The notes beneath the pieces are model-generated. The model searched no databases. It saw only the letters and a list, made by a program, of their open reading frames with translations, and was not told the DNA's origin. A program made the position numbers and the translations under genes. A stretch of DNA of 64,000 nucleotides. It comes from Pseudoflavitalea sp. G-6-1-2 (lineage in GTDB: Bacteria; Bacteroidota; Bacteroidia; Chitinophagales; Chitinophagaceae). Location of the stretch: the NCBI RefSeq assembly GCF_012927185.1, contig NZ_JABBGB010000001.1:744001-808000 (forward strand), read 5' to 3'. Shown in pieces: positions 748 to 992 of the stretch. The first letter of the stretch is position 1, and each line of letters opens with the position of its first letter.

Positions 748-755
748 TAAATTTG
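748..755 (+). promoter_or_regulatory. Bacteroidota -7 promoter element for the tRNA-like gene
   Basis: TAAATTTG matches the TAnnTTTG -7 consensus of the Bacteroidota housekeeping sigma factor exactly. Transcription would start near 761, about 28 nt before the tRNA-like gene. No well-spaced upstream TTG element was found (nearest at 734-736 and 715-717 are off-spacing), so the call rests on the -7 box and position. Confidence 0.55.
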
Positions 756-788
756 CATTGTAATCGTTCTTAACAAGTCAGCAAATAC

Positions 789-957
789 TGTGGAGTGATG
801 GAATTTTGGCAGACATGCCCTCTTGTCTCGAGGGTGGGGGTCACAGGATAAACTAAGTGTAATGCCGGACTGGTTCACGCCGGCCCGACTGGGGTTGACC
901 ACCGCAGGTTGCGCTTATGCTAACTGCCCCGTGGAGGTTCGAGTCCTCCCTCTACAG
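789..957 (+). tRNA. tRNA-like gene, class II (Leu-type) body with an oversized variable region
   Basis: The ends fold as a tRNA. Acceptor stem TGTGGAG (789-795) pairs with CTCTACA (950-956, one G-U), with G957 as discriminator and no encoded CCA. The D arm is ATG (798-800) / CAT (814-816) around a Leu-like loop GAATTTTGGCAGA. The anticodon stem is CCCTC (818-822) / GAGGG (830-834) with the 7-nt loop TTGTCTC. The T arm is GGAGG (933-937) / CCTCC (945-949) around TTCGAGT. The odd parts: loop position 34-36 reads GTC (an Asp anticodon) inside a Leu-type body, and 98 nt (835-932) lie where a class II variable arm of roughly 15-20 nt belongs. That insert closes with GGGG (837-840) / CCCC (927-930) and can hold further helices: 839-843/896-900 as an alternative, 864-868/880-884 and 904-907/924-927. 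It has its own -7 box and terminator. Whether it is a working tRNA, an intron-bearing tRNA or a tRNA-derived RNA is open. Confidence 0.6.
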
Positions 958-962
958 CAACA

Positions 963-992
963 GCCCGAAAGTAATCGCTTTCGGGCTTTTTT
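963..992 (+). terminator. Intrinsic terminator after the tRNA-like gene
   Basis: GCCCGAAAG (963-971) pairs perfectly with CTTTCGGGC (978-986) across a 6-nt loop and is followed by six T (987-992). It sits 5 nt after the tRNA-like 3' end. Confidence 0.92.

Follow-up and report, generated by a model that had tools for sequence, protein, structure and literature searches.

In the indirect pathway of asparagine formation, tRNA-Asn is served by a non-discriminating aspartyl-tRNA synthetase (AspRS) and by GatCAB, and aspartate is turned into asparagine on the RNA. YrlA, a bacterial Y RNA, is a mimic of tRNA. In Escherichia coli, the genes asnC and asnA are arranged divergently. There, AsnC activates asnA, and L-asparagine abolishes this activation (PMC4482635). 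Two further papers name five strong determinants of aspartate identity, G73, G34, U35, C36 and C38 (PMC9976931), and describe U1-A72 as a determinant for amidation by GatCAB, from which tRNA-Asp is kept by G1-C72 and U20a (PMC9976931; PMC4206432). One of them reports 18 genera from clades including the Bacteroidetes that possess AsnRS, GlnRS and GatCAB but neither AsnA nor AsnB, and that have a single AspRS outside Deinococcus-Thermus; the presence of GatCAB in these genera was explained by a non-discriminating AspRS, which had been shown for a few species (PMC4206432).

Here we describe a tRNA-like RNA encoded in a 64,000-nt stretch of the Pseudoflavitalea sp. G-6-1-2 genome, the whole of which we refer to as the window. 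With the tRNA-Asn of the indirect pathway, this RNA has U1-A72 and G73 in common and, as we propose, the conversion of aspartate to asparagine on the RNA, but it differs in its GUC anticodon with C38, its class II variable arm and its non-decoding loop, and the tested genomes also have AsnRS. Given the GUC anticodon with C38, an ordinary discriminating AspRS should suffice for it. With tRNA-Asp, it shares G34 U35 C36, C38, G73 and G2-C71, whereas it carries U1-A72 instead of G1-C72, A10-U25 instead of G10, U37 where the host tRNA-Asp has A37, and a 98-nt variable arm. Its D arm, the base of its variable arm and its T arm are those of a tRNA-Leu, from which it is set apart by G73 (A73 in the host tRNA-Leu), the GUC anticodon, the acceptor bases UGU/ACA and the extended arm. 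Lastly, the locus resembles the E. coli AsnC-asnA pair in that an AsnC-type regulator lies beside a function that would form asparagine, but here the regulator would control the gene of an RNA and not that of an enzyme.

We propose, with a probability of about 0.68, that this RNA is a tRNA set aside for tRNA-dependent asparagine formation and not for decoding, with steps of charging, amidation and release that we infer as follows. The ordinary AspRS of the host would aspartylate the RNA via G34 U35 C36, C38, G73 and G2-C71, and GatCAB would amidate the resulting Asp-RNA to Asn-RNA, accepting it because of U1-A72 in place of the G1-C72 of tRNA-Asp. The RNA would be kept off the ribosome by pyrimidine 37, by its long variable arm and, in some lineages, by having lost U33; asparagine would be freed from it for AsnRS and metabolism, a release to which we give an even chance. 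The AsnC-like regulator would switch the RNA on when asparagine is scarce, by analogy with AsnC and asnA of E. coli. AspRS, GatCAB and the RNA would thus together make up an asparagine synthetase. The wider formulation, on which we are evenly divided, is that the RNA acts as a cofactor outside translation and forms with AspRS and GatCAB an RNA-dependent asparagine synthetase; it would stand under an AsnC-type regulator, in the place that asnA or asnB occupies in other lineages, and GlnRS-bearing Bacteroidia would retain GatCAB for this RNA alone. If true, this would provide another, directly testable answer to the question of GatCAB retention in Bacteroidota. It would also reveal a large RNA family in which a tRNA has been recruited wholly to metabolism, for which we found no earlier description among open-licence PMC papers, and may add an RNA component to an amino-acid pathway.

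A tRNA-like RNA family of the Bacteroidia

An earlier note on this DNA had read the locus as a tRNA-like gene whose variable region spans 98 nt and whose anticodon is GUC, and the complete cloverleaf in the window (Table 1) indeed covaries in 70 homologues. In their alignment, 98.5% of the 2342 pair cells hold standard pairs, compared with 89.7% in shuffles and 44.9-55.5% with slid partners, and 18 of the 34 pairs have changed on both sides. The alignment supports the acceptor, D, anticodon and T helices together with three helices of the variable arm; the additional pair C788:G957 is kept in part, with A there in 3 of the 70 rows. The cloverleaf assignment rests on this alignment, as minimum-energy folding of the sequence by itself gives another structure; the fold energy has a z of -3.15 relative to shuffles. 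Such structure and conservation speak for the proposal. The likeness of the D loop and T arm to tRNA-Leu, also pointed out in the note, holds on inspection by eye; R1, our covariance model of the family based on 20 of the 70 aligned copies, also picks up the host tRNA-Leu(UAG), at 51.1 bits. By contrast, we reject the suggestion of a tRNA with an unusual intron, since the base of the variable arm is conserved and covaries, and short forms lack only the distal part.

Table 1. Features of the tRNA-like RNA and its surroundings, in positions of the window.
Feature	Position	Strand	Basis or remark
AsnC-like Lrp/AsnC regulator gene, 156 aa	168..638	-	divergent from tRNA-like RNA
-7-like promoter box TAAATTTG	748..755	+	read from sequence; motif enriched upstream of homologues
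tRNA-like RNA, mature body	788..958	+	alignment of homologues and covariance model
Acceptor stem	789-795/950-956	+	optional extra pair C788:G957
Acceptor 5' strand U1 G2 U3 G4 G5 A6 G7	789..795	+	U1, G2 in 129/129
D arm, tRNA-Leu-like, G18 G19 at 808-809	798..816	+	stem 798-800/814-816
Anticodon arm	818..834	+	stem 818-822/830-834; loop 823-829 UUGUCUC
Anticodon G34 U35 C36; U37; C38	825-827; 828; 829	+	
98-nt variable arm	835..932	+	stems 836-839/927-930, 844-846/924-926, 855-859/912-916; covariation
Internal-loop strand GATAAAC, conserved	847..853	+	partner GCTAA at 919-923; alignment
Distal variable-arm motif GGGTTGACCAC	892..902	+	present in long forms, absent from many short ones; alignment
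T arm, T-loop TTCGAGT	933..949	+	stem 933-937/945-949
Acceptor 3' strand up to A72, then G73 (957), encoded C74 (958)	950..958	+	C71 A72 G73 C74 in 129/129
Intrinsic terminator	962..992	+	stem 962-987; terminators enriched after homologues

The view that the RNA is a transcription unit of its own and not debris holds up at the sequence level. The box upstream of it, of the TAAATTTG type, is what we take to be the Bacteroidota -7 box; of 69 homologues, 27 have TAnnTTTG in the 70 nt upstream, where base shuffles predict 3.4, and 42 are followed by a terminator within 110 nt, against an expectation of 3.0. The RNA escapes standard annotation: ARAGORN called no genes in the window, Rfam gave no match there at the gathering score, and the RNA is absent from the 41 RF00005 matches of the host (150 of 237 candidates scored). 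Weak Rfam matches to SdsR, suhB, SraC and NsiR1 were discarded as they fall below the cut-off, and three of the four overlap the terminator on the same strand. Likewise, a phage relationship was dismissed, given that a phage search returned eight records with 24% coverage that matched via the T arms of tRNA-Asn.

By blastn, the host genome contains one copy, and the RNA is present in 65 of 119 relatives. A covariance search of related genomes, suggested in the note, retrieved a family: R1 members of at least 70 bits are present in 50 of 295 genomes sampled across the Bacteroidia, a count that, like all family and co-occurrence counts given here, is inflated by shared ancestry, and that may miss members, as these searches used stricter filters with 10-12 candidates scored per genome. 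We set the membership cut ourselves, at E <= 1e-18, as no match lies between the 70.5 bits of G447 and the 63.7 bits of G348; tRNA-Leu-sized matches reach up to 62.7 bits in this sample, and a cut of E <= 0.01 (220/248 and 254/295 genomes), which mixes in ordinary tRNA-Leu, was not used for membership. In a pattern scan of named genomes, all 80 loci among the matches listed belong to Bacteroidota, including Chitinophaga, Niabella, Terrimonas, Dyadobacter, Cyclobacterium, Algoriphagus, Fulvivirga, Marivirga, Neolewinella and Portibacter; some of these genera we assume to belong to this phylum, and others are Bacteroidota by record title. The tRNA-like RNA is therefore a real family, spread over the Bacteroidia and with strong covariation.

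Some loci (L174-L178, L180 and L146) carry tandem arrays of three to five RNA copies, which adjoin an AsnC-like gene in L146 and lie away from it in the others. The 63.7-bit match in G348 (L232, 438-515, minus strand) is 78 nt long and has U1, A72, G73, the loop CUAUCUC and a short variable loop; it is probably a reduced relative that was left out by the membership cut.

The distal part of the variable arm bears a UUGACC-like motif, in which we see a presumed resemblance to Y RNAs and which would favour a Y RNA-like partner of a Ro60/TROVE protein. We dropped this reading, which now seems scarcely credible to us. YrlA is likewise a tRNA-like noncoding RNA, but its layout differs and it needs Ro60, and TROVE was found in only 7 of the 119 relatives, the host among them, as opposed to 65 with the RNA; moreover, many short forms lack the UUGACC-like motif. 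Separately, the TROVE/Ro60 gene of the host (G000:C3:1653736-1654485; also L072) is followed by repeated tRNA-mimic stretches that by eye look like YrlA-type Y RNAs, with an RF00005 match of 29.6 bits at G000:C3:1655364-1655422.

Identity bases and the anticodon loop

Identity bases were tallied over 129 matches, which came from 86 searched sources and were fitted to the family model. U1, G2 and C71-A72-G73-C74 are invariant, while U35 and C36 are each found in 128 matches, C38 in 127 and G34 in 126; base 34 is C in one exception and U in another, base 38 is A in two, and the loop is partly missing in one. Positions 32, 33 and 37 vary. The RNA thus has all five strong AspRS determinants, G73, G34, U35, C36 and C38, along with the GatCAB determinant U1-A72 in 129/129, and these bases support the proposal. 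In the earlier note, the anticodon appeared as mismatched; GUC is there as described, but it is a conserved feature that goes along with C38, G73 and U1-A72 rather than a mismatch. In the host, tRNA-Asp has G1-C72 and tRNA-Asn has U1-A72, so the tRNA-like RNA joins the AspRS marks of the one to the GatCAB mark of the other. Only 3 of 37 host tRNAs start with U (Asn, Gln and Ile).

Two observations count against the proposal here. The bacterial tRNA-Asp features G1-C72 and G10 are missing, the RNA having U1-A72 and A10-U25 instead, and in family f70 base 34 is changed, to C34 in L163 and to A34 in the 78-nt relative in L232. At position 20a, the RNA has A, but U20a is also found in the host tRNA-Asn.

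All 37 distinct host tRNAs have U33 and a purine at position 37. The copy in the window retains U33 and has U37, and across the family, 120 of 129 matches have pyrimidine 37 and 21 have G33 or C33. It is therefore unlikely, judging from the loop, that the RNA decodes codons. Its complete cloverleaf, its T and D loops and the U33 of the window copy would fit a working minor tRNA for Asp, or of the Leu or Ser class, that takes part in decoding despite an unusual variable arm; given the loop bases, we consider this very improbable, and the host already has tRNA-Asp(GUC) and five tRNA-Leu anticodons among its ordinary tRNAs, so that the RNA is a variant on top of an ordinary set. A Leu identity is further opposed by G73, a base that in tRNA-Ser of E. 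coli acts as an antideterminant for LeuRS (PMC9976931).

GatB, GlnRS and the aspartate and asparagine enzymes of the hosts

The presence of GatCAB in the hosts was judged from gatB only, which exceeds the cut-off in 216 of the 295 genomes: in 50/50 genomes with the element (i.e. the tRNA-like RNA) versus 166/245 others. In genomes that lack GlnRS, GatCAB is required for Gln-tRNA as well. We therefore examined glnS in 80 genomes: all 50 that carry the element, and 30 that do not, which were hand-picked with knowledge of their GatB status and took in 16 of the 166 GatB genomes without the RNA. Among the 40 tested genomes with GlnRS over the cut-off, GatB is found in 26/26 with the element and in 0/14 without it, three of the latter having weak gatB matches below the cut-off (E about 1e-21 to 1e-23). 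All 16 tested genomes with GatB and without the element lack GlnRS, so GatB has another job there; by the same token, GatB would be kept anyway in the 24 element genomes without GlnRS over the cut-off. G348, with its 63.7-bit match, is without GlnRS, and moving it would leave the 26/14 table the same and turn the 16 into 15. Furthermore, the element and gatB were both lost in members of family f1 (G035 and G148) and of family f61 (G330, G432 and G540), whereas other members keep both. This co-occurrence also speaks for the proposal.

AsnRS is present in 34/34 genomes tested (in G347 as two pieces), each of which has a single AspRS; the types were assigned by score and length, and checked on the host proteins. 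At one site compared across AspRSs, Phe in the host enzyme corresponds to His in the enzyme labelled Asp/Asn in the PDB (4rmf) and in its near-twin 4o2d, and to Leu in the Asp-only enzyme of T. thermophilus (6hhv). His, which we take to be a signature of the non-discriminating type, occurs at this site in none of 14 other Bacteroidia AspRSs, from eight genomes with the element and six without. This comparison suggests that the host AspRS is discriminating and uses tRNA-Asn poorly, which would explain the usefulness of a GUC-bearing carrier. Conversely, the long variable arm might hinder AspRS.

The host also encodes a 617-aa AsnB-family protein (L354:8523-10376; G000:C1), which matches TIGR01536 with 480 bits and PRK09431 with 271 against a cut-off of 499, and which may or may not make asparagine. 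It counts against the proposal, and the tRNA-like RNA need not be the sole route to asparagine in its presence. TIGR01536 matches 294/295 genomes and is thus uninformative on the absence of asparagine synthetases. Another point against is G475, in which the RNA coexists with an AsnA-type protein. The AsnB-family gene of the host adjoins two DUF2911 genes, and no sugar-polymer genes were seen among the scanned neighbours.

The AsnC-like regulator and the genes that face it

The earlier note had remarked that the gene next to the RNA is trmB. This is correct, but a functional link is not supported. In a screen of 71 copies, TrmB turned up next to 15 of them; the true number may be higher, since the flanks were short and no more than three frames per side, the longest ones, entered the screen. 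Conservation is wider for the neighbour on the side opposite to trmB, which is the AsnC-like gene. Its protein matches PRK11179 (AsnC) best in NCBIfam, with 161.6 bits relative to a curated cut-off of 227 and 68.1 for the next family, and its best PDB match is 2cg4, 'regulatory protein AsnC' (3.9e-32). Among loci whose upstream sequence is long enough, the gene lies divergently next to the RNA in 92 of 125 when duplicates are removed by element sequence, or in 93 of 126 when recounted by place, with one genome (L018/L073) in twice. In the 295-genome sample, the regulator is present in 49/50 genomes with the element, G447 being the exception, versus 19/245 others; these 68 genomes were counted by hand with a cut (E <= 1e-43) that was read off a gap. 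An AsnC-like neighbour of this constancy argues for the proposal.

It is also compatible with other roles. Asn-RNA might be formed in the same way, with its asparagine donated to a peptide, a lipid or a cell-wall component instead of being freed. The same identity bases, GatB co-occurrence and non-decoding loop would suit such a donor; yet no transferase stands out among the neighbours in clustered loci, where the AsnC-like gene is the only widely shared one, and we regard donation as improbable. Alternatively, the RNA could be a non-acylated regulator that binds AspRS, GatCAB or both as a decoy or sensor, or that serves as the scaffold of an Asn-transamidosome, and could help the AsnC-like regulator to read the aspartate/asparagine status. 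This would agree with the AsnC-like neighbour, the identity bases for both enzymes and the extended, structured variable arm, and tRNA-requiring transamidosomes are known (PMC8406222). Against it, the invariant G73 and the encoded C74 give the RNA an acceptor end like those of the ordinary host tRNAs, and GatB follows the RNA in the tested GlnRS genomes, a pattern more in keeping with a substrate than with a regulator; a purely regulatory role therefore seems rather unlikely to us.

Returning to asparagine formation as the proposed role of the RNA, we looked at the 19 genomes that have the regulator without the RNA. In five of them, in favour of the proposal, an asparagine synthetase gene faces the regulator, encoding asparagine synthetase A in G506 and G460 and asparagine synthase B in G539, G389 and G562; these genes are partial, and their scores therefore lie under the whole-protein cut-offs. 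In the other 14, the regulator is faced by other protein genes, short terminator-bearing units or tRNA-like scraps, and that these 14 of 19 loci face no asparagine synthetase counts against the proposal. R1 searches of the upstream stretches of all 19 genomes yielded a sole match, a reduced relative of 30.3 bits beside the AsnC-like gene in G417 (L194, 569-683, minus strand), in which the acceptor and T arm are kept and the anticodon arm is seemingly lost. A tRNA-like scrap is visible by eye upstream of the regulator in L206, where the RNA is missing. Finally, in L202, L203, L204, L214 and L216, the AsnC-like gene is faced by a short sequence that, by eye, has a strong terminator-like hairpin and no tRNA-like fold; it may be a further small RNA controlled by this regulator.
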